From Ignavibacteria bacterium (GTDB taxonomy: Bacteria > Bacteroidota > Ignavibacteria > Tepidaquicellales > OLB5): a stretch of 38,238 nucleotides of DNA. The stretch spans positions 1 through 38,238 of the forward strand of contig JAUQWQ010000207.1 of the NCBI GenBank assembly GCA_030835085.1, given 5' to 3'. Below are positions 9,615 through 26,107 of the stretch, in pieces. The notes under the pieces are model-generated. The model was not told where the DNA came from. It was given only the letters and a program-made list of their open reading frames with translations, and made no database searches. Position 1 is the first letter of the stretch; each line of letters starts with the position of its first letter. Both the position numbers and the translations under genes were made by a program.

Positions 9615-10805
9615 TTATTTTACCAAAATCATTTTTTTTATATTTTGGTAGTTCCCTGCACTAAGTTTGTAAAAATAAACACCTGAAGGAAGTCCTGATG
9701 CGTCAAAATCTGCATTGTAAGTTCCTGCTGAATATTTGGAATTGATCAAAACCGCAGTTTCCATTCCTAAAGCATTGTAGACAACTAATTTTACATTTCC
9801 CGCTTCCGGTATGCTGAATTTAATATTGGTAACAGGATTAAAAGGATTCGGGTAATTCTGCAACAACGAGTAATCTGACGGTATTTCTGCGGATATCTGT
9901 TCGACACTGTTTAGTTCACTTATCCCTCTTCTGTATTCGCTGTAATCAGTGGCAGCAAAGATATAATTGTTGAGTACACATAGTCCGTATACTTTCGGAC
10001 CTCCTGTAAAACCTTCGTTCTTCTGAATCCAGTTTGACCCATTATCGCTTGAAATATACACTCCAAAGCCATCTGTACCGGCAATTATTGTACTTCCGGT
10101 CATTGCAAATGAATAAATACTGCGGTTTGATAAAGTGGTTTGAGCCCAGGTAACGCCGCTGTTTGTTGATTTATATATACCAGCTCCGTAATATGTACCG
10201 GCATAAATATCATTTCCGTTTACAAACAATGACTGTATGGTCTGATTATTCAAAGCTGTTTGTGTCCATGTACTTCCGTTGTTTGAGGATATATAAACAC
10301 CGTTTAAATATTTCCCTGCAATGATATTGCTTCCGCTTACAGCAAGTGAATATACATCACCGCTGTTTAAAGCAGTTTGGGTCCACGTTGAGCCGTTATT
10401 GGATGACACATAAACTCCGTTATAAAAAACTCCGGCAAAAATATAGCTCCCGCTTACTGCAATCGAAACTACAAACTGGCCTGTAAGTGCTGTTGGAGCC
10501 CATGTTGATCCGCTGTTTGTTGATAGATATATTCCGTTACCGTAAGTACCTGCATAAACATTGGTGCCGCTTGCAGCAAGCGAGAACACGAATTGATTAT
10601 TCAATGATGTTTGGGTCCAGTTATTGCCGTTATTTGTTGACTTATATACCCCGGCATTAAAAGTACCTGTGAATAAATTATTTCCGCTGGCAATCAATGA
10701 GCGCTCAGATAAAAAGCCTATGCCGTTTGTATCGGGCTGCCATTGAGAAATTGATATGTGTATATAAATAAATAAAACAATAACTGCAATCAGAATTTTC
10801 TTCAA
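9615..10805 (-). CDS. T9SS-secreted protein with six BNR/propeller repeats
   Basis: This is a secreted repeat protein of unknown ligand. I choose the TTG at 10805 as the start because a GAGGAT lies eight bases upstream and a signal peptide (LKKILIAVIVLFIYIHISIS) follows immediately. The longer ATG version at 10907 has a non-secretory N-terminus made from leader hairpins. Six repeats of about 40 residues follow, each of the form 'G-x-x-I-x-A-G-T-x-x-x-G-V-Y-x-S-T-N-x-G-x-x-W', typical of a beta-propeller. The C-terminus carries QNYPNPFNP and ends KKMILVK, a T9SS type A sorting domain. It has its own promoter and structured leader and is probably co-transcribed with the GH74-like gene downstream. 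Confidence 0.85.
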   Translation of the reverse strand: MKKILIAVIVLFIYIHISISQWQPDTNGIGFLSERSLIASGNNLFTGTFNAGVYKSTNNGNNWTQTSLNNQFVFSLAASGTNVYAGTYGNGIYLSTNSGSTWAPTALTGQFVVSIAVSGSYIFAGVFYNGVYVSSNNGSTWTQTALNSGDVYSLAVSGSNIIAGKYLNGVYISSNNGSTWTQTALNNQTIQSLFVNGNDIYAGTYYGAGIYKSTNSGVTWAQTTLSNRSIYSFAMTGSTIIAGTDGFGVYISSDNGSNWIQKNEGFTGGPKVYGLCVLNNYIFAATDYSEYRRGISELNSVEQISAEIPSDYSLLQNYPNPFNPVTNIKFSIPEAGNVKLVVYNALGMETAVLINSKYSAGTYNADFDASGLPSGVYFYKLSAGNYQNIKKMILVK

Positions 10806-10820
10806 ATTAATATCCTCTAT

Positions 10821-10879
10821 GGGGCAAAAACATCCCCGGTTTTTATAAAACCAAATAATAAGCGGCATACCGGTATGCC
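10821..10879 (-). promoter_or_regulatory. Structured 5' leader: three consecutive hairpins before the TTG start at 10805
   Basis: In transcription order the leader holds GGCATACCGGTATGCC (10864-10879, a perfect 16-bp palindrome), then GGTTTT/AAAACC (10838-10852, three-base loop), then GGGG/CCCC (10821-10837, nine-base loop). The last hairpin ends just before the GAGG ribosome binding site. It may affect stability or translation. The first palindrome may be a dispersed repeat rather than a gene-specific element. Confidence 0.5.
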
Positions 10880-10937
10880 TTTTAACCACAAGAACGCTTC
10901 GAATCATCCCGTGGACTTATTATTCAGCAGTTTTTCA

Positions 10938-10969
10938 TCAAATATACATGATATGATACTGCCTGACAA
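10938..10969 (-). promoter_or_regulatory. Bacteroidota-type promoter of the propeller gene pair
   Basis: On the minus strand TTTG (10966-10969) and TATATTTG (10938-10945) are exactly 20 bases apart, a full match to the Bacteroidota -33/-7 consensus. Transcription would begin near 10931, about 125 bases before the TTG start at 10805, so the three-hairpin leader would be transcribed. Confidence 0.65.
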
Positions 10970-11080
10970 AGAAAGTTTTCACCAGTTTTCATTGGTACTT
11001 TAGCTGAAAATACTGCGATTATGCTTCTTTATTGATATTAATTTGCATTATCTTTCAGCAGTAAACCAACATATTTTAAT

Positions 11081-12517
11081 TTGATAAACAGTACATTACT
11101 TGAAATATTAAAAACATTTACAAAAGAAGAATTAAAAGAATTTGACCAAATGGTAAGCTCCGGTTACTTTAACAGGAAATCAGCGGTATCAAAGCTATGG
11201 AAAATAGTATTTGAACTCTCCCCTGAGTTTAACCCTAAGGAGTTATTCCGAGAAAAGGTCTACGGAAGGATCTTCCCCGGCAAGCCTTTTAATTACGGAA
11301 CAATGAAAAATCTTGTGTTTGATCTTACAAAACTTGCCGAAAAATTCATTGAGCTGAAAGTTTACAATGAAAAACCTTCCAAGATATCTGAAAATCTGCT
11401 GGAAGCTTTTCTGGAAAGAGGTTTAGGAGATCTGTTTGAAAAAAATATCCGCTCGATTGAAAAAATGCACTCTGCGAAAAGTGATGATACAAATTATCAT
11501 GAAACAAAATATATTCTGGAAGTTTTAAAACAAAATCACCTGATAACACAGGATAAATTCTATCAAACGGGTGAAAACATAAAAGCAGTCAATGAATATT
11601 TAACGATGCGTTATTTTATTGATGTTTTTGTCAACAATTATAATTCATTATATATGCAGAATGAGATCAGCGGTAACTATAAGAATGATTTCGTAAGGAA
11701 AGTTCTGGAGTTTTTGAAAAGCGAGCCTGCCGAAATGGATTACAGGGTTAATATATATTATAACGCATTTATGCTTGTGTACGATGGAGGGATTCAGTTC
11801 TTTTATGCACTCAGAAAATTGCTTGAGGAAAATACTGATAATCTGGGAAGTGAGCTGAAATATAACTTTTTTATTGCCCTGGCAAATTATTGCGTTAAAA
11901 AAGCAGACGAAGGATTAAGTGAATTCACGAAAACTGAATATGAAATTTACCGCTTTATGATTGATAACAATATTTACAGCATTGACCGTGTAAAAAATAT
12001 TGACGGGGCTTTTTATAAAAATGTTTCAGGTGTTGCCGTAAATTCGGGTGAGTTTGAATGGGCAAAATATTTCATAGAAAAATATAAAGAAATGCTTGAA
12101 CCGGAAGCAAGGGAGAATTATTACTTTCATGCTTTAATTGAATATAATATAAAACTGAAAAACTTTGGTGAAGTACTGGGGTATCTTTCTAAGATAAAGC
12201 ACACCAACCATTCAAGCAAGCTTAACATTAAAGGATGGGAAATTATTACCGCTTACGAACTGGGGCATCTTGAAGAAATGAGATATTTGATCGATTCATC
12301 TAAACATTTTCTCCAAAATGATACGAAAATCTCCCATCAGAAAAAGAACAAGTTTTTAAATTTTCTGAATTTTATACTTAGATTGCTTTCAATGAAAGAT
12401 ATGAAGGCGGGTAAAAGCGAAGTTATTTATTCTGCGGAAGAGTTGAATGCTGAAATAAAAAATACCGATACACCTCACAAGACCTGGCTGCTGGAAAAAG
12501 CAATTGAATTCACATAA
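11081..12517 (+). CDS. Uncharacterised SPYFN-family helical protein, paralogue A
   Basis: This 478-residue soluble protein is predicted to be almost entirely helical, with no signal peptide or membrane segment. The N-terminus (LLEILKTFTKEELKEFDQMV, then SSGYFN) and a following PEFNPKELF...VYGRIFPGKPFN...MKNLVFDLTKLAEKF are shared with the genes at 18030 and 22347. Near the C-terminus all three share a 'D-S-x-x-H-F' motif (DSSKHFL here). The repeated helices look TPR-like, but I cannot assign a function. The start is TTG at 11081, supported by alignment with the other two copies; no ATG occurs before residue 20. It is divergent from the propeller gene at 10805 and convergent with the small membrane protein at 12522. 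Confidence 0.8.
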   Translation: MINSTLLEILKTFTKEELKEFDQMVSSGYFNRKSAVSKLWKIVFELSPEFNPKELFREKVYGRIFPGKPFNYGTMKNLVFDLTKLAEKFIELKVYNEKPSKISENLLEAFLERGLGDLFEKNIRSIEKMHSAKSDDTNYHETKYILEVLKQNHLITQDKFYQTGENIKAVNEYLTMRYFIDVFVNNYNSLYMQNEISGNYKNDFVRKVLEFLKSEPAEMDYRVNIYYNAFMLVYDGGIQFFYALRKLLEENTDNLGSELKYNFFIALANYCVKKADEGLSEFTKTEYEIYRFMIDNNIYSIDRVKNIDGAFYKNVSGVAVNSGEFEWAKYFIEKYKEMLEPEARENYYFHALIEYNIKLKNFGEVLGYLSKIKHTNHSSKLNIKGWEIITAYELGHLEEMRYLIDSSKHFLQNDTKISHQKKNKFLNFLNFILRLLSMKDMKAGKSEVIYSAEELNAEIKNTDTPHKTWLLEKAIEFT

Positions 12518-12521
12518 AAAA

Positions 12522-12881
12522 TCAAACCAATGCTGCTTTTTTATTTTCCGGGGCTATTTTCTTTAACTGTTTCATGCGCCTGTTATTGCAATGACAAAAA
12601 GACCTTGTTCTTTTTTTAACAAAGTAAGCTGATATCAACCCTGTGGCTGCTGAAAACAGTAAAAGAATAAGAACATTTACTGCATACTGATTTAAGCCCG
12701 CCTTCTTAAGGTCCCGTTCGCTTTTAAGTATTTCAATTTCATGTTTTAGATCTGCAATTTCACTGTCTTTTGCAGCAAGATCGTCATTCTGGGCTGTCAT
12801 GCTTTGGATGCTCATTGCAAGCAAACACAAAAAGAACAAGGCTGTTAATACTGCGATACTTATAGATCTGATCTGGCTCAT
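12522..12881 (-). CDS. Small two-TM membrane protein with coiled coil
   Basis: This 119-residue protein is not recognised. It has an N-terminal hydrophobic segment (ISIAVLTALFFLCLLAMSI), a short heptad-like stretch (AAKDSEIADLKHEIEILKSE), a second membrane segment (VNVLILLLFSAATGLISAYF) and a basic tail containing two nearby Cys (SFCHCNNRR). The layout suggests a hairpin in the inner membrane with the coiled coil on the outer face. It ends four bases from the end of the SPYFN paralogue at 11081. The ATG is at 12881. It is possibly a lineage-specific protein; nothing indicates its role. Confidence 0.6.
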   Translation of the reverse strand: MSQIRSISIAVLTALFFLCLLAMSIQSMTAQNDDLAAKDSEIADLKHEIEILKSERDLKKAGLNQYAVNVLILLLFSAATGLISAYFVKKRTRSFCHCNNRRMKQLKKIAPENKKAALV

Positions 12882-12938
12882 GTTTCAATACTAACTTTTT
12901 AAAACCTGTGGTTTAATGACTAAAACGTTAAAGAGAAA

Positions 12939-13703
12939 TCATTTTATCAGAAGCATTTTTTTTGTTTCAGAATAACTGATACCGGGAGCCTGTACAACTA
13001 TTGTGTAAAAGTAAACGCCGCTGGCCAGGCTGTTTCCGTCAAACTTTATACTGTAGTAACCAGGTTCCAGATTTTGATTTACAAGTTCTTTTACTTTGCT
13101 TCCTTTTACGTCATACAAATTCAAACTCACTTTAGAAACCTCCGGGATCTGGTATTCAATTGTTGAGACCGGATTGGACGGATTTGGATAGTTCTGTGAT
13201 ATATTAAACAGTCCCGGTGAATTTATCCGGATAGTTTCATTTACCTGGAAATACTCAAAGTTTCCGTTGTAATCAATTTGTTTCAGCCTGTAATAGTAGG
13301 TTCCAATATCAAGTTTTTTATCAATATAACTGTAAACTGATTGATTGGTAACATTGCCATTTCCTGTAATCCAGCCAACCTTTTTCCACTCAGTGCCGTT
13401 AAGATTTCTTTCTACTTCAAAACCTTTGTTGTTAATTTCCAAAGCGGTTACCCAGCCTATTCTCACATCACGGAAGTTTTCAACGGACGCATTCAGCGAG
13501 ATCATAAGAACGGGAAGAACCCCTCCGCATTGCGTACCCGATCCTGTTACATTACCTGATATGTTTCCCCATGCTGTTGCGCAAATATCAGTCCCTGAGC
13601 TGACAATGATCTCTGCGCCTTCATCAATAATTATGCTCTGTGAATAGGTGAAACAGAATAAAGTTAAAGTAATGTATACCGAAAGTACATTTAGAAGTTT
13701 CAT
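12939..13703 (-). CDS. Short T9SS-sorted protein downstream of an S74 gene (copy 1)
   Basis: This 254-residue secreted protein has a signal peptide (MKLLNVLSVYITLTLFCFTYS). A conserved block follows, of the form G-T-D-I-C-A ... G-x-G-T-x-C-G-G-x-L-P-V, with two Cys. Then comes a fibronectin-like domain (WVTALEINNKGFEVERN ... YYYRLKQIDYNGNFEYF) and a T9SS domain with QNYPNPSNP instead of PNPFNP, ending KKMLLIK. The same architecture occurs in the gene at 36452. It starts ten bases after the S74 gene at 13714, so the two are an operon. It may be a surface-fibre or wall component partnered with the S74 protein; that is inference. Confidence 0.8.
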   Translation of the reverse strand: MKLLNVLSVYITLTLFCFTYSQSIIIDEGAEIIVSSGTDICATAWGNISGNVTGSGTQCGGVLPVLMISLNASVENFRDVRIGWVTALEINNKGFEVERNLNGTEWKKVGWITGNGNVTNQSVYSYIDKKLDIGTYYYRLKQIDYNGNFEYFQVNETIRINSPGLFNISQNYPNPSNPVSTIEYQIPEVSKVSLNLYDVKGSKVKELVNQNLEPGYYSIKFDGNSLASGVYFYTIVVQAPGISYSETKKMLLIK

Positions 13704-13713
13704 GTTTTCTATA

Positions 13714-14781
13714 TTAATTAACTTCTGTTCGCTTTTTTCTTTTTACTGTCAGTGTAATAATGATACCTGCTGCCAATGCAAGCAAAATGTGGTAGATGTT
13801 TTCTCTGCTATAACTGCCAACAGATGATTCCTGTGGTTTGTTAATTTCCTTCAGCATTCTGATATCGTCATTCATTCTGTTTATTTCACTCTGCTGTTCC
13901 TTAATAGCATTAACAAGCACCGGAACCATGTTGCCATAACTTATTCCCATGCTGCCTTCTTCTCCTGAAACCACTTCCGGGATAATGTTCTTCAATTCCT
14001 GTGCAATAAAACCGATTTCAAGTTTATTAGTAGAATCATTTTTATAATAGTACGATACCGGGCGGATCTTCATAAGCTCTGCCAGCCCGTATTTGTTTAA
14101 AGTTTCGATATTACGTTTAAGAGTGCTATCCGATGAGTTAGACCATGATGAGCCGTTACTATATGCGCCGCCGCTTAGGGTAAGAAGCTGGGAAGGATTA
14201 TTTACACCTATGCCTATTTTTCCGTTCGATTTTATCCGGAGTCTTTCATTTGACTGCATTGTACCGCCAGACATAAAAATAATATCTTTGGTTGAATTAC
14301 TGTTCGCGATCAAAAGGTCATTTCCGTGACCCAGCAGATAACAGTCGTTGGGTTTGCCTAGCTCAACCGGGTTCCAGGGTTCCCACACATACCCGGAACC
14401 ATTTATACCCATATTGACATAATTGGTGGTTTCTGTTCCGTTATCAGCGGTAGCTACTATATCTGAGGATGCCTGTGAGCCGTTTGAAAGGTTCCGGATA
14501 TTAAACTGAAAATAGTTATTGATGGTGCCTTTAGTATATATGGCGTTAACAGAGCTTGTTGTGCCGCAATCAACAAGGAATTTTTCCGGGTTTGCCGCAT
14601 CAAATACACTGGTGCCAATAGCTACATTGCCCGTAGTTTTATTTACTATAAAATACCTTGGTGTACCGGTAGCATCGGTAATAATATAGTTTCCGTTGGT
14701 ACCTAGCTTGTTTGTAATATTTTGTGAGTATAATGATGTATAAACAGTTACTGCCAAAAATATAATGAAAAGAGTTTTCAT
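13714..14781 (-). CDS. Secreted protein with peptidase S74 chaperone domain and C-terminal TM
   Basis: The 355 residues start with a signal peptide (MKTLFIIFLAVTVYTSLYS). Beta-rich sequence follows, with tail-fibre style GNVAIGT and KIGIGVNNPSQLLTLSG motifs. A peptidase S74 (intramolecular chaperone of endosialidase) domain begins at SDSTLKRNI. In this family, Ser and Lys five positions apart form the self-cleavage dyad; here they are S217 and K222, both present. GFIAQELKNIIPEVV is also typical. A short coiled coil (QQSEINRMNDDIRMLKE) comes next, then an unusual C-terminal membrane segment (LLALAAGIIITLTV) followed by KRKKR. S74 domains aid trimerisation and then cut themselves off. The gene is followed at ten bases by a T9SS-sorted protein. 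Confidence 0.85.
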   Translation of the reverse strand: MKTLFIIFLAVTVYTSLYSQNITNKLGTNGNYIITDATGTPRYFIVNKTTGNVAIGTSVFDAANPEKFLVDCGTTSSVNAIYTKGTINNYFQFNIRNLSNGSQASSDIVATADNGTETTNYVNMGINGSGYVWEPWNPVELGKPNDCYLLGHGNDLLIANSNSTKDIIFMSGGTMQSNERLRIKSNGKIGIGVNNPSQLLTLSGGAYSNGSSWSNSSDSTLKRNIETLNKYGLAELMKIRPVSYYYKNDSTNKLEIGFIAQELKNIIPEVVSGEEGSMGISYGNMVPVLVNAIKEQQSEINRMNDDIRMLKEINKPQESSVGSYSRENIYHILLALAAGIIITLTVKRKKRTEVN

Positions 14782-15122
14782 ATGAAGACGTAGTTTATTT
14801 GAAAAAATTAGCCTGTCTAAATTTATAATAAAGGCTGGTTTGAGATGTACTTTCCTGCGGTGATTTGGACTGGATGATAGTGGCTTTAAGACCGATTCAC
14901 GGGGGAGTAATTTTTAATCGCACGCAAATCTTAGAAACATTCCCGAAACTGACCACAGGATATCATTGCATGCAAAATAATCTTAAGCAATTACAAACGG
15001 CAAAAAAGAATAAAGCAACGATATCACACCTCAAAAATAAGCCTGGAATGAACATATTGCTATAGTTATAATAAGGAAGCTCATGTAGTTGTTTTAATTA
15101 CAAACTCCGTTCCGGAAATAGC
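14782..15122. other. Intergenic region without a recognised gene
   Basis: This stretch of about 340 bases lies between the S74 gene and the DMT transporter. An open frame at 14865-15065 (+) encodes a Lys-rich peptide with no signal, motif or start context and looks like chance. I found no RNA gene, strong hairpin or clear promoter. It must contain the S74 promoter, but no good TAnnTTTG is visible. Confidence 0.5.
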
Positions 15123-16055
15123 CTAATGCCAGCTGTGCTGCAACTCTTTTTTGCCTTCTTCATGTTTAAGTATGGCAATAATTCCGCCAATGCTTACCAC
15201 TGCTATACCAATAATAGTAAGTGTATCGGGCACGTTCCCAAAAAGCCACCAATCCATTAAGCCTATATATATAACTACAAAATAATTGAACGGGCTTAAC
15301 TTTGAGGCTTCAGTGTGTCTGTATGAATACTGCTGCATATTCAGATATGCGACAAGCAGAACACCGCCAGCCAGAGAATACAGCCAGCCTTCAATCGGCG
15401 GATTTGACCAGTATATTATTCCAAGCGGTAAAGAAAGTATCATTGCAGAAAGGGAAAAATAGAACAGTATGGTTTTGAATCCGTCTGACTTTGTGATTAT
15501 TCTCATTGCAACATAACTTATTGCCAGTAAGATTCCCGATGCCAGCCCTATAAGATCACCCACCTTAAAAACATTACCATCCGGCTTTATTATAAGGACT
15601 ATCCCGATAAACCCGATCAATATGCCAAGCCATATTCTTTTTTCAACAACATCCTTAAGCCACACTAGACCAATTATCGGAATAAAAATGGGAGCCGTAT
15701 TCTGAAGCAGTGATGCATCCACCATCGGTATCTCGGTCATTGCCGCAGCAAATAACAGGAATGAAATAACACCTGCAGAACCTCTCAATATCTCGAGGGG
15801 ATAATTAGCCGGCCTGATGTTTCGGAATTTTTCTTTAAAGCTAAGCAGCAGCGAAAGAACGAAAGCAGCAGTGTACTGCATAAATACAATCCAGCCAAGC
15901 TGCGCACCTGTTTTACCGGCAAGTTTAACACATACTGCAATGAGCGAGAGGAAAAAGAGTCCAACCAGCGCTGAAATTATTCCTTTCGCTAAAGATTGTT
16001 GTGATGCAGGCGTGCTGCCGCCTGCCGGTGATACTCCCGCAGATCTATCTTGCAT
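15123..16055 (-). CDS. EamA/DMT-family transporter with REP-encoded N-terminus
   Basis: This is a drug/metabolite transporter superfamily membrane protein of 310 residues with ten predicted membrane helices in two EamA halves. It shows the PxxxxLLQNTAPIFIPIIG...EKRIWLGILIGFIGIVLI pattern in the first half and KLSPFNYFVVIYIGLMDWWLFG in the second. The substrate cannot be deduced; relatives export amino acids or other metabolites. The first 21 residues (AGVSPAGGSTPASQQ) are encoded by a GC-rich palindrome resembling a REP element and are not part of the transporter fold, which begins near LAKGIISALVGLFFLS. The gene stands alone, downstream of the terminator at 16104 and so with its own promoter. 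Confidence 0.85.
   Translation of the reverse strand: MQDRSAGVSPAGGSTPASQQSLAKGIISALVGLFFLSLIAVCVKLAGKTGAQLGWIVFMQYTAAFVLSLLLSFKEKFRNIRPANYPLEILRGSAGVISFLLFAAAMTEIPMVDASLLQNTAPIFIPIIGLVWLKDVVEKRIWLGILIGFIGIVLIIKPDGNVFKVGDLIGLASGILLAISYVAMRIITKSDGFKTILFYFSLSAMILSLPLGIIYWSNPPIEGWLYSLAGGVLLVAYLNMQQYSYRHTEASKLSPFNYFVVIYIGLMDWWLFGNVPDTLTIIGIAVVSIGGIIAILKHEEGKKELQHSWH
16006..16025. repeat. REP-like GC-rich palindrome inside the 5' end of the DMT gene
   Basis: GCAGGCG (16006-16012) and CGCCTGC (16019-16025) form a perfect 7-bp stem around TGCTGC. The GC-rich sequence contrasts with its AT-rich surroundings. Its translation in the minus frame gives SAGVSPAGGSTPA, a peptide I associate with translated REP elements in many genomes. 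Only one copy is seen here, so repeat status rests on recognition. Confidence 0.55.
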
Positions 16056-16098
16056 AAATAGTATTAATTACACGCAAGATAAATCATTAGGGGTAAAT

Positions 16099-16124
16099 AA
16101 AAAAGTCCGTGTATAACACGGACT
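16099..16124 (-). terminator. Strong intrinsic terminator after the 60-residue membrane protein gene
   Basis: On the minus strand AGTCCGTGT and ACACGGACT form a perfect 9-bp stem with a three-base loop, followed by TTTTT. It ends the transcript from the T9SS gene at 16438 and the small gene at 16236, and isolates the DMT gene downstream. Confidence 0.85.
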
Positions 16125-16235
16125 CTTACTCCTCCCCTTCTTCTGTGGCATCAGGCTGAAAGTCTTCAGATATTCACCTGACGAATGTCGGGTACACGTC
16201 AACACATTCATTGGTATACAATAATAGCGCGATCT

Positions 16236-16418
16236 TTACCCGAATACAGATTGTATACCGGCAATAATTACTATTACAACGATCAGCAAAAAAACAACTC
16301 CAAGAATAATTGCCGTTGAGATAAAAGTGTTAGTAGCCTGTTTTTCAAATCTTTTTTTATCTTTTTCTGCCTGATCTGATTTATAATATTCAGATAATTT
16401 ATCAAAGTATGAGCTCAT
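16236..16418 (-). CDS. Small single-TM membrane protein
   Basis: This 60-residue protein has a charged amphipathic N-terminal half (YFDKLSEYYKSDQAEKDKKRFEKQ) and one membrane helix (STAIILGVVFLLIVVIVIIAGI). No family is recognised. It starts about 20 bases after the T9SS propeller gene stop and is followed by a strong terminator, so it is the last gene of that transcript. The short size makes it less certain, but clear topology and position favour a real gene. Confidence 0.6.
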   Translation of the reverse strand: MSSYFDKLSEYYKSDQAEKDKKRFEKQATNTFISTAIILGVVFLLIVVIVIIAGIQSVFG

Positions 16419-16437
16419 ATTTAATATTAATTTATGT

Positions 16438-17637
16438 TTATTTTACCAATATCATTTTTTTTGTATCTTTAAAACCGCCTGTATTCAGAGAGTAAAAGTA
16501 AATACCCGAAGGGAGATCTGCCGCATTAAAATCAACATTATATATCCCCGCTTTAAGTACTTCATTGATCAGTATTGCTGCCTGCCTGCCTGCTGCATCA
16601 AATACAACAAGTGATACAAACCCGGGTTCCTTTATCTTCAAGCCGATATTTGTAACGGGATTGAACGGGTTCGGATAATTTTGCGAAAGTGAAAAATTTT
16701 CCGGTACTTCATTGGAAACTGGAACAATTGACATGACCTCGGTTAAAGGTCTTCTGCAAATGCCTCCACCCAGCGTTCCTGCATATATGTAGTTATTATC
16801 GCAGTACAGTTCTGTTACATTTGTTGAGGTAAGGCCCTGATTGCTGAATGACCAGGTACTGCCGTTATCATAAGAAAAATAAACTCCATTAGTTGATGTC
16901 CCGGCAGCAAGAATGCTGCCTGTTTTATAAAGAGCGTAAACTGTCAGGTTTCCCATACCTGTATTGGAAACGCTCCAGTTATTACCAGAGTTTGTTGATC
17001 TGTATACTCCTCCGTATAAGGTACCTGCAAAAATATCACCCGATAATTCCGCAAGCGAGTAAACATTCCCGGCATTTAAACCTGAATTTGAGTTAACCCA
17101 ATTATCCCCGTTATTAGTAGACTTAAAAACACCGGATGCGCCTCCAACATATAAGATACCGTTTGCTGAAATTATCGGCCAAAAACCACCTCCTGAAATG
17201 CCTGAATTAACCGAAATCCATGTATTTCCTGAATTCGTAGATCTGTAAACTCCGCTGCTCCAGTCAACTGCGTAGATATAATTGTTGTGGGAAATAAAAT
17301 TTCTTATACTGCTTAAACCTAAATTTGTCCAGTTATCCCCGTTATTTGATGAACGGGAAACTGAATTTGGCGAAAACGATCCCGCAAATAAGATCCCCGA
17401 TATTTCCCGAAGCGCCCAGAGACTGTTATTGGTTATCCCCGAATTTACCATTACCCAGTTATTTCCCTGGTTTGTTGATCGATACACTCCATAGCCGTCA
17501 GATGCAGCAAATAAATACTGACCGTTTGAAGTTATCCCTCTGACTACAGTTCCGGATATTCCGCTGTTTATTTGTTGCCACTGAGAAATGGAAGAAGAAA
17601 TTATCAGAAATTCCAGAATAATTATTAATGATTTCAT
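16438..17637 (-). CDS. T9SS-secreted BNR/propeller repeat protein
   Basis: This 399-residue secreted protein has a signal peptide (MKSLIIILEFLIISSSIS). About six repeats of roughly 42 residues follow, of the form G-x-x-Y-R-S-T-N-x-G-N-N-W-x-x-x-N-S-G, and a T9SS type A domain (QNYPNPFNP ... KKMILVK). The repeats should close into a beta-propeller; ligand and enzyme activity are unknown. It closely resembles the genes at 9615 and 19462. It is divergent from the SPYFN-family gene at 18030 and is followed by a small membrane protein gene in the same transcript. A promoter at 17790-17822 fits, giving a leader of about 145 bases. Confidence 0.87.
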   Translation of the reverse strand: MKSLIIILEFLIISSSISQWQQINSGISGTVVRGITSNGQYLFAASDGYGVYRSTNQGNNWVMVNSGITNNSLWALREISGILFAGSFSPNSVSRSSNNGDNWTNLGLSSIRNFISHNNYIYAVDWSSGVYRSTNSGNTWISVNSGISGGGFWPIISANGILYVGGASGVFKSTNNGDNWVNSNSGLNAGNVYSLAELSGDIFAGTLYGGVYRSTNSGNNWSVSNTGMGNLTVYALYKTGSILAAGTSTNGVYFSYDNGSTWSFSNQGLTSTNVTELYCDNNYIYAGTLGGGICRRPLTEVMSIVPVSNEVPENFSLSQNYPNPFNPVTNIGLKIKEPGFVSLVVFDAAGRQAAILINEVLKAGIYNVDFNAADLPSGIYFYSLNTGGFKDTKKMILVK

Positions 17638-18029
17638 TTTTCTGTATTATTAAGTTTTCATTCTTTATGATTAATTCAGCTATTTAAGATCAATTCAGCT
17701 TATTTGAATAGTAAAAATTTTAATTGTTCGCATCTCTTGGACTTATCATGATATATAAATTTATGTTTTTAAAATTTTTTTTATTGCTTCAAAATTACAT
17801 CAACATGCGGTGTTAAATCAAAGAAATTAAATGAAATTTGTTACAGAAAACTTTGGATAAAAATTACATGGATTGTTCATTAATCTATATTTTTTATTAT
17901 ATTTACGTAAACAAAGATGTTTGAAATGTTAGTGATTTCGGGGAAGTGGAATATAATATGAAAATGTTTTTGGAAACAGAATAACAAAAATAGTCAAAAC
18001 ACAGCTAACGCTAATATTATATAGGGGTT
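17638..18029. other. AT-rich divergent intergenic region
   Basis: About 390 bases of very AT-rich DNA lie between the T9SS gene (minus) and the SPYFN gene (plus). It contains an imperfect direct repeat (AATTCAGCTATTTAA and AATTCAGCTTATTTGAA, about 17680-17715) and the minus-strand promoter listed separately. For the plus strand, a TATATTTA with a TTG 22 bases upstream is a weak promoter candidate. No gene or RNA is seen. Confidence 0.5.
17790..17822 (-). promoter_or_regulatory. Bacteroidota-type promoter of the T9SS gene ending at 16438
   Basis: On the minus strand TTTG (17819-17822) lies 21 bases before TAATTTTG (17790-17797), fitting the -33/-7 consensus. The resulting leader to the ATG at 17637 would be about 145 bases. 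Confidence 0.45.
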
Positions 18030-19469
18030 ATGAACAGCAGCAGCCTGATTTTATTACTAAAAAATTTCGATAAGCAGCAGCTTAAAGAGCTCAGCAGCTT
18101 TGTTAAATCACCATATTTCAACACAAACAAAGCCCTTGTATCACTATTTGAGTATATCCGGAAGCAGCATCCGGATTTTGCTGCAGAAAAACTTGAAAAG
18201 AAATATGTCTATAAGAAGATTTTTGGTAAAACAGAATTCAATGATGGTTTTTTCAGGGTTCTGATGTCAAACCTTCAGCAATTGGCCGAAGAATATCTTT
18301 CGTTTAAAGGCTACCAAAAAGATACACTGCTAAAGAAAAAATTCCTGCTCGATCAGCTGATGATGCTTCCTGATAATAAAAAACTTGCGGAAAAAATACT
18401 TAAGGAAGGATTAAAAGAAGCCGATAATATTAAACCAGATGGTCCCGATGATTACCTGGGAAAGTATTACATGTCTTTTTACAGAAAATATATCTACAGC
18501 ACCAGTTTTTCCGCAAGTAAAGATAAGATGCCCTCTGAGCACCTGTACGATGAACAGAAGTATCTGACATATTACTTTTTATTAAGAATGCTTGCAGATC
18601 ATTTCTACCATCTCAATCAGAGCCAGATAATTAATTATACGCCTAAACTTATCTTTGTGGATGAGATAATTTCGTTCCTCGAAAAAAACCCTGAATACCT
18701 GGAATTTCCGACTCTTAATATGACATACCTGAGAGTACTTTTACTGAAAAATAATAACATTGAAGATCTTTACAAATTGAAGATTGCGTTTTATGAATCA
18801 TACAAAGAGCTGGGACATAAAGACTGTTTTAATATTATTTCCATAATAATAAACTTCTGCCATAAAAATTATTATTTGACTGAAGATGAAAAATTCCTTG
18901 AAGAAAAACTTGAAATTCTTTTGTTCGGGCTGGGTAACGGGATAACCTCTTTTGATGAAGATGATTATTTTGATAACAACAGGTATAATAATCTCTTCAG
19001 CACTTATATTGAGTTTGGCAGAATTGACGATGCGGAGAAGTTCATTAAAGAATACGGCCCGAAGATTGGCCCCGAAGAACAGAATTTCTGGATAAATTAT
19101 TCTATGGCCGAGCTATTGAGCAAACGCGGCAAATACGATGATGCGCTTGATCATTTATCAAAAATAAGGAATGTAAAAACAGTTTCATACAAATTACATC
19201 TTAGATCCCTTCAGCTCAGGCTTTACTACGATGCGGGATTAATTGAGCAGGCAATTTCTGCGGCTGATTCATTCAGGCATTTTATACAGAAAGAAAGCCT
19301 GATGAACCCGATGTTCAATGAACAGTACAGGAACTTCTATTCGTTTTATCTAAAGTTACCTGGTTTAAGCACAGGCAAGAACTCAAATGCTGCCGATGAA
19401 TTAAAGGAAAGTTTACTGCAAGTAAAAAACGTAATTCACAAAAAATGGCTGATGGAAAGGATTACTTGA
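18030..19469 (+). CDS. Uncharacterised SPYFN-family helical protein, paralogue B
   Basis: This 479-residue, mostly helical soluble protein belongs to the same family as 11081 and 22347. The N-terminus reads LLLKNFDKQQLKELSSFV, then KSPYFN, followed by HPDFAAEKLEKKYVYKKIFG and LMSNLQQLAEEYL, all aligning with the other two. The C-terminal DSFRHFI matches their DSSKHF motif, and DALDHLSKIRN matches LSKIKH in 11081. No catalytic signature is visible. The ATG at 18030 gives the conserved N-terminus. It is divergent from one T9SS propeller gene and overlaps the tail of another (19462) by 8 bases in convergent orientation. Confidence 0.82.
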   Translation: MNSSSLILLLKNFDKQQLKELSSFVKSPYFNTNKALVSLFEYIRKQHPDFAAEKLEKKYVYKKIFGKTEFNDGFFRVLMSNLQQLAEEYLSFKGYQKDTLLKKKFLLDQLMMLPDNKKLAEKILKEGLKEADNIKPDGPDDYLGKYYMSFYRKYIYSTSFSASKDKMPSEHLYDEQKYLTYYFLLRMLADHFYHLNQSQIINYTPKLIFVDEIISFLEKNPEYLEFPTLNMTYLRVLLLKNNNIEDLYKLKIAFYESYKELGHKDCFNIISIIINFCHKNYYLTEDEKFLEEKLEILLFGLGNGITSFDEDDYFDNNRYNNLFSTYIEFGRIDDAEKFIKEYGPKIGPEEQNFWINYSMAELLSKRGKYDDALDHLSKIRNVKTVSYKLHLRSLQLRLYYDAGLIEQAISAADSFRHFIQKESLMNPMFNEQYRNFYSFYLKLPGLSTGKNSNAADELKESLLQVKNVIHKKWLMERIT

Positions 19470-21495
19470 TCAAAATCATTTTCTTTGAAGCCCTGAAATC
19501 ACCAACTTCTAAAGTGTAAAAATAAACACCGCTTGAAAGATTGCTGCCGTCGAAACCAACAGCATATTTACCAGGGACCATTTTTTGATTAATTATTGTA
19601 TGAACTAACCTCCCTGATGCATCATAAACCTGCAGCAAAACTGTTTCATCAAATGATTTGCTCTTAGGAATATCAAAATTAATTTTAGTAAGCGGATTAA
19701 ACGGGTTAGGATAGTTTTGATCAAGCTTATAAATAAGGGGAATTTCGGTGTTAATAGGATTTATGCCTATTATTTGCGAAACATCCAGTTTCCATACTGC
19801 ATTAGCTTCGGTACCTGCAAACAGATAATTTCCAGAGATCATTAATGAATATACTCTCTGGCTATCCAAACCATTGTTTAGATATATCCAGTCATTGCCT
19901 GAATTACTGGAATAATAAACTCCTCTTCCTGTACCGCAAATTAGATAATTGTTTATATCAATAATACAATTAATATCCGTATTATTCAGATTAACCTGTA
20001 TCCAGTTAACGCCGCTATTTGTTGATCTGAATATTCCTGAGCTGTCTGTCCCTGCAAAAACTGAATTATTAAAGTACAAAAGTGATAATATGGTATGACC
20101 TGAAAGATCTGTATTTCTCCAACTTCTCCCAAAATTTGTAGAAATTACAAGTCCCCGGGTGCCTAAGTTATTGTTTGCGTATCCTGCATATATATTTTCG
20201 TTTTTAACAAGTAAAGAATTTATTTTGCAGTTATTCAAACCTATCCTGACCCAGTTGTTTCCAGTATTGGTTGATCTGTATATACCTGAGCTTTCTGTCC
20301 CGGCATATAATACACTATTTTCCAAAGCAATGCTGTAAACATCATTCGATGGAGAACCAATTCTAATCCAGTTAAATCCTGAATTTGCAGTGTAGTAAAT
20401 TCCACCCCCAACAGTAGCCGCAAATGTAATGTTATCATTATTCAAAAATGAGTGTACACTATAATAAGAAGAATCCCTGTAAATCCAGTCTGTTCCGTTA
20501 TTGGTTGAAATATAAATACCATTATCATAATTGCCGGCACAAAGATTATTCCCTGATTTGCCAAGTGAAAGTGTTTTTAGATTGTGCATTTCGGTCTGTA
20601 TCCATGTATCACCATTATTTGCAGAGTATAGAACTCCCATTCCGGAAAATCCAGCAAATATAGTATCATTTTTAACTGCAAAAGCATAAGGTGTTCCATT
20701 ACGTACAGTCGTTTGCTGGTATGATGCTCCGTAGTTTGTAGAACGGTAAACTCCGAAACCGCCCGTCCCCACAAATGCATAATTGTTCTTTCCTATTATT
20801 GAAGGAAAGACGGTAAAATTTAAGCCAGAATAACTCCAGTTAATTCCATAATTTGTTGAACGGTAAACTCCACCCTGGCTTCCAATATATATATAATTAT
20901 CTTTCACATCTATTGCTTCGATTGCTGGTACAGTTAAACTTGTATGTATCCATGTTTGGCCATTGTTTCCTGAAAAATATAATCCTGTATTTCTGCTTGC
21001 AAAAACATTATTCGTTCCATCTGCTCTTAAATACCTTGCTATGAATGTTGAATCATAACTCCATGTTATTCCGTTATCATCAGAAGTATATAGCCCCGTC
21101 TGCGAAGATGCCAGCAGCCTGTTGCCGCTTGAAGCAATAGTCCATATAGACTTATCAGTCAGATTGGTTTGCTGCCAGTTAATGCCATTGTTTGATGAAT
21201 AATAAACTCCGTTATAATCTGTTCCGGCAAATATCAACTGATCCTTCTGTGTCAAACATTTAATGCTGATCCCTTTCAAATTGGAGCATTTCCATGTATT
21301 TCCGTTATCAGAGCTGGTATATATGTTTCCCATTCCACTTGATATTGAAACGCAACCAGCAATCAAGTAATTATCTTTTATTATTAAGGAAAATACACTG
21401 CCGAATTTCATTCCGGTGGAGCTCTGTTCCCATTGTGCAAAACAATTTAATGAAAGTAATATCAGGGCGTAAATTACAATAATAATTCTATTCAT
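19462..21495 (-). CDS. Large T9SS-secreted BNR/propeller protein
   Basis: This 677-residue secreted protein has a signal peptide (MNRIIIVIYALILLSLNCFA). Roughly fourteen repeats of about 40 residues follow (pattern F-A-G-T-x-x-x-G-V-Y-x-S-x-N-x-G-x-x-W), enough for two seven-bladed propellers, and then a T9SS domain (QNYPNPFNP ... KKMILIK). The ligand is unknown. The sorting domain has a longer loop (KSKSFDETVLL) than the other minus-strand copies. The stop codon lies inside the tail of the SPYFN gene at 18030. A TATATTTG (21525-21532) lies about 30 bases upstream of the ATG but without a matching -33 TTG, so it may be read through from DUF1287. Confidence 0.87.
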   Translation of the reverse strand: MNRIIIVIYALILLSLNCFAQWEQSSTGMKFGSVFSLIIKDNYLIAGCVSISSGMGNIYTSSDNGNTWKCSNLKGISIKCLTQKDQLIFAGTDYNGVYYSSNNGINWQQTNLTDKSIWTIASSGNRLLASSQTGLYTSDDNGITWSYDSTFIARYLRADGTNNVFASRNTGLYFSGNNGQTWIHTSLTVPAIEAIDVKDNYIYIGSQGGVYRSTNYGINWSYSGLNFTVFPSIIGKNNYAFVGTGGFGVYRSTNYGASYQQTTVRNGTPYAFAVKNDTIFAGFSGMGVLYSANNGDTWIQTEMHNLKTLSLGKSGNNLCAGNYDNGIYISTNNGTDWIYRDSSYYSVHSFLNNDNITFAATVGGGIYYTANSGFNWIRIGSPSNDVYSIALENSVLYAGTESSGIYRSTNTGNNWVRIGLNNCKINSLLVKNENIYAGYANNNLGTRGLVISTNFGRSWRNTDLSGHTILSLLYFNNSVFAGTDSSGIFRSTNSGVNWIQVNLNNTDINCIIDINNYLICGTGRGVYYSSNSGNDWIYLNNGLDSQRVYSLMISGNYLFAGTEANAVWKLDVSQIIGINPINTEIPLIYKLDQNYPNPFNPLTKINFDIPKSKSFDETVLLQVYDASGRLVHTIINQKMVPGKYAVGFDGSNLSSGVYFYTLEVGDFRASKKMILIK

Positions 21496-21559
21496 AGGAT
21501 TTTATGAATAATTTTCAGTTATTACAAATATAATATATATTTTAAAGGTTTTTTGTTCA

Positions 21560-21600
21560 TTTCGCTATCTCACTAACTCACTATCCCGCTATTTCACTCT
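21560..21600. repeat. 8-base periodic repeat at the 3' end of the DUF1287 gene
   Basis: Read on the minus strand, the stretch consists of degenerate 8-base units: AATAGCGG, GATAGTGA, GTTAGTGA, GATAGCGA. The first unit contains the TAG stop of the DUF1287 gene. A similar array follows the DoxX stop (31691-31731). The period is not a multiple of three, so it is not coding. Confidence 0.6.
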
Positions 21601-22308
21601 ATAATGTCCAATAATAGTCCACTCATGTAGCACATCTTCTTCTGCTACATAACCGGGGTCAGGAAAGTTATGTATGAGGTAAGGGGCTCCACTTACTGAT
21701 TTGTCTGAGACTATTCCGATATGATCACCCCAGCCATCACCATTCATATCCCACGCAACAACATCACCCGGTTGAAAGTCGTTTTCAATTGATAACTCCT
21801 GCCAATACTTTGCAAACCAAATCATTAAAACAGGTACGCGTCTTTGATCAATGTTCGGGTCGGGTTTTTTAGCTGACCATCTCGACATCGGGTAATCGCT
21901 CCAGTTTGCCTTCAGGTCGTTGTAAACCTCTTCCTGCAGGTCACACACCCCGCCCCAGCGCAAAGCGCGGACTATAACATCGGTGCATACGCCCATATCA
22001 GGGGCAACATCACCACCGGGGAAAACTTTCGAGCCTGTATTTTCACCATCTTTATATGTACATACATAGTAGCCCATCGTCATATCATAGCTGAACTTCG
22101 CCTCAAGGCACTTCTTTGCACCATCAAGTACTTTTTTCTGGCTCTCCGTTAAAGTAACTTTGTTTGAAAGGGTCGAATCAGTTTTATTTATTGTTCTGTT
22201 TGTGTTATCAGATTTAACATCCTGCTTGGAGCAGGAAATAAAAAAGAATATTGCAAAAATTACTCCTGCGATTTTGTAAATTTTTTTATTTAATAATAAA
22301 TTATCCAA
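21589..22308 (-). CDS. DUF1287 family lipoprotein (YijF-like, NlpC/P60-type fold)
   Basis: This 239-residue protein has a lipoprotein signal ending in FFFISC, with Cys26 as the likely acylation site. The DUF1287 core follows: GVCTDVIVRALR (Cys108), NIDQRRVPVLMIWF, PGDVVAWDM, GDHIGIVS (His196), IHNFPDPG and IIGHYR. The Cys-His arrangement resembles the NlpC/P60 amidase fold, so peptidoglycan hydrolysis is plausible but unproven. The start appears to be TTG at 22308; no ATG fits a signal peptide. It follows the SPYFN gene at 22347 by 38 bases on the same strand, so they are probably co-transcribed. The final residues and stop merge into an 8-base repeat. Confidence 0.83.
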   Translation of the reverse strand: MDNLLLNKKIYKIAGVIFAIFFFISCSKQDVKSDNTNRTINKTDSTLSNKVTLTESQKKVLDGAKKCLEAKFSYDMTMGYYVCTYKDGENTGSKVFPGGDVAPDMGVCTDVIVRALRWGGVCDLQEEVYNDLKANWSDYPMSRWSAKKPDPNIDQRRVPVLMIWFAKYWQELSIENDFQPGDVVAWDMNGDGWGDHIGIVSDKSVSGAPYLIHNFPDPGYVAEEDVLHEWTIIGHYRVK

Positions 22309-22346
22309 GTTTTCGTGCTCTATTTATTGAAAGATTTTTTGCTTTT

Positions 22347-23828
22347 TTATTTTTCCTTTTTTACTGCTGTCTCCAGCTCTTCTATTTTTTCGCCAAACCA
22401 GCTTCCGTGTCTTAATCTTAAAGCTTTATCTTCACCAATATTTTCTTTCAATTTCTCTAAGGTATTGCTCTCGTTACTTTCGCTGCAGTGTACCAGTCTT
22501 TCTAAATATTTAAAGAATTTCAGATACGCTTCCCGTGTTTCTTCTTCAATAGCTTCGTTTCCGCTGATAAAATGCTTTGATGAATCTATGTAATGCAGCA
22601 GCAATTCGGTTTCTCTAAGCTCATAATATGATTTCGCTGAAAGTATCCTTGTATGAAGCTTATCACGTATATCAATAAATTCAACCCTGTTGATATGATA
22701 TAAAGTTTTCCTGTAATCCTTTTTAACAAAATTTAGATAGCCAAGCGCCAGCGCTTCCATGGGTTTGCGGAACTCCGGATTTAGTTTTGGAGTATATTCC
22801 TTTATAAAATCCTCACCCCATTTTATTTCATTCACTGCAAGCGCATTCCTTAGCACCTGGTGATACAGAGCCTTGTTTATTCTCCCGTTCAGGAATGTAT
22901 CGGTTCTTTTTTCAAGACGCATTTTATTTATTTCAAAAAGCTCTTTAAAGTAGAACTCATTGCCCAGCCGCATTTTATTTGCGCAGTAATTGGCAAGGGT
23001 TATCAAAATATTCTTCTGCTCCATAATATCAAACAGATCGCTGTTTGCTTCAAAGAATTTCTTCATTTCAAAGAAATACATCTCATTATCCTCATCAACA
23101 GCAGACATAATTTTATTATAATAAAACCTTAACACCGGCGCGAACGAAAAATTGTTTTCCTCGGCATGAATTACGATCTTTTCAAGATCAAGCTTTGTGA
23201 AAAACCCGTATGCTGTTTTGGAGCCGGGGCTTGAATTGTACATCCTGCCAAAAACATGAAGGTCCCACACCTGTACCGCAATATCAGCGAACATTTTCTG
23301 GATGAAATACTCAACACCTTTAACAATATTTATAAGGGCAATATCCTGCCTGCCTTTTATTGTGATCCAGTATTCTGTTTTACTTTCTTCAATAACCCAG
23401 CCAGAGTAAAAATGATCCGGTCCCGTTTTTTTGGCATCCAGCAGTTTTTCAGCAGTTTCAATTTCCTTCAGGTTCTGTTTATCAAGCTTCCGCTTAAGAA
23501 GCTCCCCGAAAAGTATCCTGAATCTCTCAAGCTTGTTTTCCTTCAGGCCAAGCTGAAGCATAAATTCTTTTGAAAGCTTCTCAAGCTCAGATGCAAGATT
23601 CCACATCATCTGCTTATTGAATTTCTTCCCCGGGTACAGTTTTTTGTGAATGTATTCGTAAGTTAACTTATCATTATCAAATTCCGGGTAAAATTTCTGA
23701 AGCTGTTTTATAAAGGGAATGTAATTTCTGCCGTTATTAAAAAAGGGGGAGGCAGCAAATTTTTCGAACTGCTTCCACTCGCTTTTGCTGAACGTTTTCA
23801 GGGTCTCAATGAGCCTTATTTCCTTCAT
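22347..23828 (-). CDS. Uncharacterised SPYFN-family helical protein, paralogue C
   Basis: The 493 residues form the third copy of this family in the window. The N-terminus LIETLKTFSKSEWKQFEKFA, then ASPFFN, YPEFDNDKLTYEYIHKKLYPGKKFN and LASELEKLSKEFM align with the copies at 11081 and 18030. The C-terminal part has DSSKHFI and INRVEFIDIRDKLHTR. All three are divergent from each other, so the duplications are old or the proteins evolve fast. No signal peptide or membrane segment is seen; it is probably a cytoplasmic helical-repeat protein. It is followed by the DUF1287 lipoprotein and a T9SS propeller gene on the same strand, and is divergent from the RHH-like gene. Confidence 0.82.
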   Translation of the reverse strand: MKEIRLIETLKTFSKSEWKQFEKFAASPFFNNGRNYIPFIKQLQKFYPEFDNDKLTYEYIHKKLYPGKKFNKQMMWNLASELEKLSKEFMLQLGLKENKLERFRILFGELLKRKLDKQNLKEIETAEKLLDAKKTGPDHFYSGWVIEESKTEYWITIKGRQDIALINIVKGVEYFIQKMFADIAVQVWDLHVFGRMYNSSPGSKTAYGFFTKLDLEKIVIHAEENNFSFAPVLRFYYNKIMSAVDEDNEMYFFEMKKFFEANSDLFDIMEQKNILITLANYCANKMRLGNEFYFKELFEINKMRLEKRTDTFLNGRINKALYHQVLRNALAVNEIKWGEDFIKEYTPKLNPEFRKPMEALALGYLNFVKKDYRKTLYHINRVEFIDIRDKLHTRILSAKSYYELRETELLLHYIDSSKHFISGNEAIEEETREAYLKFFKYLERLVHCSESNESNTLEKLKENIGEDKALRLRHGSWFGEKIEELETAVKKEK

Positions 23829-23980
23829 TTTCCTGCTTAGTCCTTTTACTGAAAATCATCAATTTAATCAACAAAATCAACACAAATTCACCTCTTAGAA
23901 ATACGGATTTTGCTTAGTTGGAAGATAATTTCTCTTTGTATTCACGCTCCTTTGGGAGATATGTTTGTACAGAGTTTTAT

Positions 23981-24190
23981 ATGGATGTGCACAAAAAAGT
24001 GCACAAATCATTTCCGGGAAAAAATAATATGAGAACAGGGAAGATCACCAATTCAACGGTTTCCAAAGGGTACAGACTTAAACCATCAACGCATAATATG
24101 ATCAAAAAAATACAGCTGCATTTAAACGGCACACAGGATAAAGTCATAAGGGCGGCAATAAAGCTGTATTCAGTACATATAAAAAAGTAA
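23981..24190 (+). CDS. Small ribbon-helix-helix-like DNA-binding protein
   Basis: A short basic protein whose C-terminal part (KGYRLKPSTHNMIKKIQLHL, then NGTQDKVIRAAIKLY) fits the strand-helix-helix layout of ribbon-helix-helix regulators: an extended YRL strand, a first helix, a turn with Gly, and a second helix. The start is uncertain: TTG 23918 gives 90 residues, ATG 23981 gives 69, and ATG 24029 gives 53 and still keeps the whole fold. It lies 32 bases upstream of the outer-membrane barrel gene and may regulate the operon that follows or itself. Family assignment is by pattern only. Confidence 0.55.
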   Translation: MDVHKKVHKSFPGKNNMRTGKITNSTVSKGYRLKPSTHNMIKKIQLHLNGTQDKVIRAAIKLYSVHIKK

Positions 24191-24222: not shown

Positions 24223-25017
24223 ATGTATAACAAAAACAAATTGTTTAACGGCGGGATTTTTACAAACTGTTTTATAATTGTGCTTATGCTGTTTGCTGTT
24301 AACGCAGAACAGCTTCATGCGCAAAATGACAGCCTGCACAAAAGTTACAGCGATACAGTAAACTACACAAAAATGCGCGATAGCCTTATGAAGGTTTATT
24401 TCCAACAGTCAAAAGACTATGAGAAAATGATGAACAAGCAGCAAAGCAAACAGCGCGGGCTTGGCAGCAGCCTATTTGGGTTAACCCTTGATGTCATTTT
24501 TGGTATCGGAATATCAAACACACAGTTTGATGTTAACGGTGATACTACCGGGCTCAGCAATGCAAATTCAAAAACTGGTCCTATGATCGGCGTAAACGTA
24601 AATTTTAACCTGTTAGGTATTGCGCTCGGAACAGGATTTAATTATTCATCAAAAGGATTTTCAACCGGTGGCTCTCAGCAGGAAAGCGCGAATTACATCA
24701 ACATTCCGCTTATGTTCGCATTCAATTTTGATGTGGGAAAAAAAATACAGGTTGATCTTGCAGCAGGTCCTTATGTTGGCATACTTCTCTCGCAGGAAAA
24801 GAACCAGTATTACCAGCTGAGCAATATCGATCTTGGCATAGTGGCAACGGTACAGGGCAATTATTTTTTCAACAGGTTTTTGGGTGCCCTGCTGGGAGTT
24901 AAGTATGAACATGGCGGCCTGAACGATATGATAGAGAAAAGTTCCGCGAACAGTTATGTAAGCTCTGTAAAGGCACGCAACTGGTTTATATATTCAGGTA
25001 TCAAATTTATTCTGTAA
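24223..25017 (+). CDS. Outer-membrane beta-barrel protein (PorT-family fold)
   Basis: This 264-residue protein has a signal peptide (about residues 1-34, ending AEQLHAQ). A helical, possibly coiled-coil segment (YTKMRDSLMKVYFQQSKDYE) follows, then an eight-strand-type barrel with GVNVNFNLLGIALGTGFNYSSKGF and the NYINIPLMFAF motif typical of outer-membrane barrels grouped as PorT-like (OMP_b-brl_2). It ends in the aromatic/hydrophobic strand FIYSGIKFIL. PorT-like here means the fold class, not proof of a T9SS machine component. GAGGAG lies 8 bases before the ATG, one of the clearest ribosome binding sites here. It is the first gene of a tight run with three T9SS cargo genes and a FecR-like gene. 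Confidence 0.8.
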   Translation: MYNKNKLFNGGIFTNCFIIVLMLFAVNAEQLHAQNDSLHKSYSDTVNYTKMRDSLMKVYFQQSKDYEKMMNKQQSKQRGLGSSLFGLTLDVIFGIGISNTQFDVNGDTTGLSNANSKTGPMIGVNVNFNLLGIALGTGFNYSSKGFSTGGSQQESANYINIPLMFAFNFDVGKKIQVDLAAGPYVGILLSQEKNQYYQLSNIDLGIVATVQGNYFFNRFLGALLGVKYEHGGLNDMIEKSSANSYVSSVKARNWFIYSGIKFIL

Positions 25018-26088: not shown

Positions 26089-26107
26089 TAAACTAAAGGA
26101 TAATAAG

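Follow-up and report, generated by a model that had tools for sequence, protein, structure and literature searches.

The RRNPP regulators of the Bacillota (Rap, NprR, PlcR, PrgX, Rgg/ComR and AimR) are one-component proteins of the cytoplasm whose C-terminal part forms a TPR superhelix. In P. gingivalis, the genes of the type IX secretion system (T9SS) apparatus are controlled by PorXY-SigP, which combines a two-component system with an ECF sigma factor (PMC4800418, PMC8265659). For local, divergently encoded regulators of the LysR, LacI, GntR and IclR families, the co-evolution of factor and DNA motif has been described (PMC4494728, PMC8222616, PMC2329647). In this study a stretch of 38,238 nucleotides from an Ignavibacteria bacterium (assembly GCA_030835085.1, contig JAUQWQ010000207.1), called the window, was analyzed. 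It contains three members of a protein family (Table 1), and the sequence comparisons suggest that this family is likely to represent a new class of one-component transcription regulators with private operators.

A multicopy helical protein family and its divergent neighbors

The three open reading frames of the initial annotation, at 11081, 18030 and 22347, are present at these coordinates, and an alignment revealed 26-28% identity among the encoded proteins over their full length. The three genes do have common motifs, albeit looser ones than had been written. The variants are SGYFN, SPYFN and SPFFN for the N-terminal motif, IFPGKPFN, IFGKTEFN and LYPGKKFN for the central block, and DSSKHF, DSFRHF and DSSKHF for the C-terminal motif. 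A profile that was built from the three genes identified 57 places in the host genome of 4.05 Mb, most of them full length, showing that the similarity among the three is not due to chance and that the "three copies" noticed at first had been a large undercount. Four relatives have 39, 45, 49 and 58 copies, and several to dozens of copies occur in many further genomes of this order. Most of the phylum is devoid of the family, with scattered members elsewhere; in a pattern-limited scan of genome contigs it was seen in Ignavibacteria, Saprospiraceae and Chitinophagales. At two loci of relatives (L031, 13085-14530, and L049, 2484-3725) the family gene appears to be in two pieces, and these may be pseudogenes or assembly errors.

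Attempts to name the family using Pfam, NCBIfam, PADLOC and PDB sequences yielded just weak matches to TPR, ANAPC3 or PPR, all located in the C-terminal part, and the weak Pfam TPR matches were confined to a few members. The literature searched did not contain a description of the family. The structure of member 3 was predicted with AlphaFold2 from an alignment of 36 sequences. The model (pLDDT 91.5) is all helical, with five helices in residues 1-97 followed by a superhelix. Foldseek matched the model to TPR proteins including LGN, Rap and NprR, none of them below an E-value of 0.001; the C-terminal TPR superhelix that characterizes RRNPP regulators is thus found in the predicted model and reflected in its matches. 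The predicted architecture is a protein of about 480 aa with an all-helical N-domain of about 100 residues and a C-terminal TPR-like superhelix. The N-domain, which reached a pLDDT of 89.4 when modeled alone, had no match in Pfam, PDB sequences, PDB folds or viral models, and an N-terminal HTH or Rap 3-helix bundle of known type was not found in the searches of Pfam, PDB sequences and PDB folds. A Pfam search revealed no Por_Secre_tail match in the family, and inspection of the N-termini (e.g., MKEIRLIETLKTF) revealed no signal peptide.

A home-made, codon-based gene caller was applied to 764 kb of sequence surrounding family copies and to 16 control contigs. A T9SS-tail gene (Por_Secre-type) was found within two genes of 33 of the 43 family copies with full context (77%), compared with 8 of 39 genes on control contigs and with 52 of 224 genes located farther away (21-23%; Fisher p = 6e-7 and p = 4e-11, respectively). 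The co-location with T9SS genes is thus real. The original phrase "beside T9SS propeller genes" holds as far as T9SS genes are indeed near, but these neighbors are not always propellers. At least 150 genes of the host genome have a Por_Secre_tail domain above the cut-off (395 candidates).

The strongest regularity of the neighborhood had been absent from the initial annotation. The upstream non-family neighbor is divergently oriented in 49 of 50 copies of the host genome, compared with 81 of 435 other genes (19%), and the same orientation was found at 28 of 30 loci of other Ignavibacteria, Saprospiraceae and Chitinophagales. The divergent partners vary and include T9SS cargo, small RHH-like proteins, proteins with FN3 domains, DUF1059, cupin and chitinase-like proteins and small exported proteins, whereby the labels RHH-like and chitinase-like denote sequence patterns judged by eye. 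One group of members is divergent to small exported proteins of 60-90 aa with a C-terminus of the type W.VYVY..DG..V...ED (C129, C184, C141, C103 and C66 of the host genome, G000, and L125), which are possible signals or surface peptides. Another subset, which includes orthologues of member 2, is divergent to stand-alone FN3-domain proteins of about 100 aa (L034, L038, L041, L173 and L192, and C102, C179 and C112 of G000). In the window, the DUF1287 lipoprotein-like gene is perhaps co-transcribed with member 3. A propeller-type T9SS gene at 26078-27565 appears to be split into two frames (26108-26410 and 26411-27565), perhaps by a frameshift or an assembly error.

The exported partners raise the alternative of RRNPP-like peptide quorum sensing, in which divergently encoded small exported peptides would be the signals for a TPR receptor. 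It would fit to the presence of NprR and Rap among the fold matches and to the several divergent genes for 60-90-aa proteins with signal peptides. However, just 8 of 46 small divergent proteins passed a crude signal-peptide test, and most loci have other partners. In addition, the N-domain is not an RRNPP-type HTH by sequence or fold search, and the fold similarity is at the general TPR level, with E-values above 0.004. This alternative is considered improbable, and it was set aside because the divergent partners are too varied. The preferred reading is transcription regulation by the family itself.

Table 1. Features of the window around the three family members, with coordinates in the window.
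Feature	Coordinates	Strand	Remarks
T9SS-tailed propeller, divergent partner of member 1	9615..10907	-	true start probably TTG at 10805 (LKKILIAVIVLFIYIHISIS signal peptide)
-33-type box TCTTTG, divergent promoter of member 1	10967..10972	-	
Proposed operator copy B, member 1	10977..10986	-	ACTGGTGAAA on - strand; 76 bp from copy A
Proposed operator copy A, member 1	11053..11062	-	reads ACTGCTGAAA on - strand; just upstream of start codon
Family member 1	11081..12517	+	478 aa, TTG start; residues 71-77 NYGTMKN
T9SS-tailed propeller, divergent partner of member 2	16438..17637	-	
TCTTTG box, member 2 intergenic region	17912..17917	-	
Family member 2	18030..19469	+	479 aa; residues 71-77 NDGFFRV; weak TPR match at 351-380
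T9SS-tailed sortilin-like propeller between members 2 and 3	19462..21495	-	
DUF1287 lipoprotein-like gene	21589..22308	-	38 nt downstream of member 3
Family member 3	22347..23828	-	493 aa; residues 71-77 NKQMMWN
Proposed operator copy A, member 3	23834..23841	+	TGCTTAGT; 5 nt upstream of start codon
Proposed operator copy B, member 3	23911..23918	+	TGCTTAGT; 77 bp from copy A, 14 nt before -33 box
-33-type box TCTTTG, divergent promoter of member 3	23933..23938	+	
-7-type box (TAnnTTTG), divergent promoter of member 3	23960..23967	+	TATGTTTG
Small RHH-like protein, divergent partner of member 3	23981..24190	+	start more probably ATG at 24029
Two GTGCAC palindromes	23987-23992, 23999-24004	+	proposed sites of the RHH-like protein
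Outer-membrane beta-barrel protein (PF13568)	24223..25017	+	next gene of the divergent transcript of member 3
T9SS-tailed protein (PF18962)	25039..26088	+	same transcript direction as the divergent genes of member 3

Back-to-back promoters and locus-specific direct repeats

The divergent promoters have an extended -33 box in common. The sequence TCTTTG, a -33-type box, was present in 29 of 50 promoters divergent to the family (58%), compared with 21 of 238 other promoters (9%; p = 1e-13) and 4 of 41 other T9SS promoters (10%). It is mostly found 90-130 nt ahead of the start codon of the family gene, and about 21 nt after it the divergent promoters have the motif TAnnTTTG, the Bacteroidota form of the -7 box. 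On the opposite strand, the promoter element of the family, TTGATTTT, is concentrated at 50-60 nt before the family start. The set distances of both elements from the family start indicate that two promoters lie back to back in a fixed geometry.

Between the two promoters, about half of the loci have two direct repeats, 7-12 bp long, whose sequence differs from locus to locus (e.g., CCTCTACAAAT twice, TAAAAACGACAA twice and, in the window, TGCTTAGT twice). The commonest spacing is 75-78 bp, and the two copies at a locus resemble each other more closely than do copies exchanged between loci (p = 5e-5, the floor of the permutation test). For the repeat analysis 80 further loci from relatives were added. 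A repeat score of at least 9 was reached at 23 loci compared with 4.5 expected (81 clusters less than 50% identical), again with a peak at 75-78 bp, while among 192 non-family promoters 11 reached this score compared with 10.4 expected, and none reached 11. Inverted repeats between the promoters were not above the swap control, and a search for one operator common to all members yielded just the promoter elements, the repeats being locus-specific. A strict helical phasing of the other spacings was just suggestive (p of about 0.1 without the main peak).

Copy A is located at the inferred transcription start of the family gene, and copy B is usually found 11-14 nt upstream of the -33 box of the neighbor. 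Both copies are kept in orthologues, while the surrounding bases vary. The repeats thus occur at both the own and the divergent promoter more often than in the swap and non-family controls, and it is proposed that they are operators. At member 1, copy B is 4 nt away from the -33 box instead of 11-14. Member 2 belongs to the approximately one half of the loci without a confident repeat pair (best score 7 in its intergenic region); the orthologous locus L034 contains TAACATTT twice, 83 bp apart.

A promoter segment that is flanked by direct repeats, and many family copies per genome, would also be expected for mobile or recombination cassettes, with the segment being lost or duplicated by recombination at the repeats. 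Library searches gave no recombinase family match, loci with a deleted segment were not seen, and the repeats have a fixed position relative to both promoters, which makes such cassettes extremely unlikely. Operators of a regulator thus stay the preferred explanation for the repeats.

At one subset of loci, including that of member 3, the divergent transcript begins with the gene of the RHH-like protein, which had no Pfam match. GTGCAC palindromes near the start of this gene were found at 16 of 16 loci with an RHH-like partner, compared with 10 of 111 other loci (p = 6.5e-14), and at least three of these ten have an RHH-like partner that had been missed by the search pattern. In the window, the probable start at ATG 24029 would place the palindromes in the leader of the RHH-like gene. 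The pattern suggests that the RHH-like protein probably acts on, and represses, the same divergent promoter via the GTGCAC palindromes. It is therefore proposed to be a second regulator, with an operator that is common across its loci.

Correspondence of repeats and N-domain residues

The similarity of the repeats between loci is correlated with the similarity of residues 31-105 of the protein (Mantel r = 0.29, p = 2e-4; partial 0.27), and after the N-domain had been accounted for, the rest of the protein added nothing (partial Mantel r = -0.004, p = 0.54). This correlation bears on the alternative that the family members act in the cytoplasm as TPR chaperones or adaptors for the neighboring secreted proteins, that the divergence results from the need for separate promoters, and that another factor binds the repeats. 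The predicted TPR-like superhelix and the T9SS genes close to 77% of the copies would be in accordance with such a function. However, the repeats track residues 31-105 of the family and not the rest, the partners are often not secreted, and a single common factor cannot bind repeats that are locus-specific. Chaperones or adaptors are therefore an unlikely explanation, and recognition of the repeats by the N-domain is favored.

The five single positions that best track the repeats are 73, 76, 72, 74 and 319; the first four form the start of helix 72-97, while position 319 is outside the N-domain. The residue-repeat pairings are KQxxWN with TTAGT, NYGxxKN with TGAAAA and YFKIKN with TCTAAAA. The motif TTAG[TG] was present at both sites for 19 of 26 QxxWN proteins compared with 2 of 101 others, and at hold-out loci, which had not been used to find the motif, for 8 of 14 compared with 2 of 66. 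TGAAAA was found for 8 of 16 YGxxKN proteins and none of 111 others, and TCTAAAA for all five YFKIKN proteins and none of 122 others. At hold-out loci the YGxxKN pairing held weakly when both sites were considered (1/7) and moderately for copy B (4/7 compared with 7/73).

In a tree of the C-terminal part, the QxxWN and the YFKIKN groups each form a single clade, and the single origin of the QxxWN proteins means that the strongest row of the code is one event inherited by many. Clade effects thus reduce the independence of the residue-repeat code. The single clades would also fit to the alternative that repeats and residue code result from common ancestry, i.e., from whole cassettes of gene and promoter that were duplicated and diverged together without a functional link. 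This is very unlikely, because common ancestry alone cannot make two copies match within a locus and yet differ between loci, and because the partial Mantel test removed the similarity of the rest of the protein. Furthermore, YGxxKN has two or three origins on the tree and occurs with TGAAA in at least two separate branches, and the sites are kept in orthologues in which the surrounding bases vary. A functional link between N-domain and repeats is thus preferred.

Proposed role and comparison with known systems

As roles for the family, the initial annotation had listed regulation of the propeller proteins, their assembly or their recognition. Regulation is in agreement with the divergent orientation, the promoters of fixed geometry, the repeats at both promoters and their correlation with the N-domain alone. 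Assembly and recognition were not supported, since the family lacks a signal peptide and its divergent partners are often neither propellers nor T9SS cargo. From the sequence data it is very likely that the N-domain binds DNA; it would read the repeats through the start of helix 72-97, with residues 72-76 being most important. Binding to copy A, at the transcription start of the family gene itself, would lead to autorepression, and autoregulation by family members appears fairly likely. Binding to copy B would control the divergent gene. The position just upstream of the -33 box suits activation, which is slightly favored, and repression would also be possible. The TPR-like part may sense a ligand or a partner and thereby switch DNA binding.

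Tens of copies per genome would thus form private, local switches without crosstalk for surface and secreted proteins. The more far-reaching view is held with some preference: a new transcription factor family with a new helical DNA-binding fold, with some 40-60 paralogues in each genome, every one of them coupled to an operator of its own via a code of residues 71-77, and together forming dozens of insulated switches. If this is true, a large part of the control over secreted and surface proteins in Ignavibacteria would lie with one uncharacterized family. The family would be a candidate answer to the question how bacteria whose T9SS cargo genes are very numerous select which of them to express, and it would add a DNA-binding domain without a counterpart found in Pfam or the PDB. 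The naturally diversified factor-operator pairs would make a protein-DNA recognition code readable and testable.

With the RRNPP regulators the family shares the cytoplasmic one-component design with a C-terminal TPR superhelix, the many paralogues and the location beside small genes. In contrast, its N-domain has no detectable HTH, it occurs in a different phylum, its divergent partner is usually no peptide, and there is no sequence homology beyond generic TPR. As to the adjacent propeptide genes of RRNPP systems, small exported proteins were found at just a minority of the family loci. By the tests made, the family is not an RRNPP member, although it may work similarly. PorXY-SigP likewise ties transcription control to type IX secretion, whereas the family would consist of many private regulators beside genes for cargo and surface proteins. 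The Arc/MetJ/CopG ribbon-helix-helix repressors resemble, by sequence pattern, the partner of 55-69 aa that one subset of loci has, and thus a partner and not the family itself. The local regulators of the LysR, LacI, GntR and IclR type have in common with the family the divergent gene order, an operator between the promoters and the correlation of recognition-helix residues with the motif. In contrast to these unrelated proteins, the repeats of the family are direct and not inverted, they are about 75-78 bp apart, and tens of copies of one family would each have a private site.
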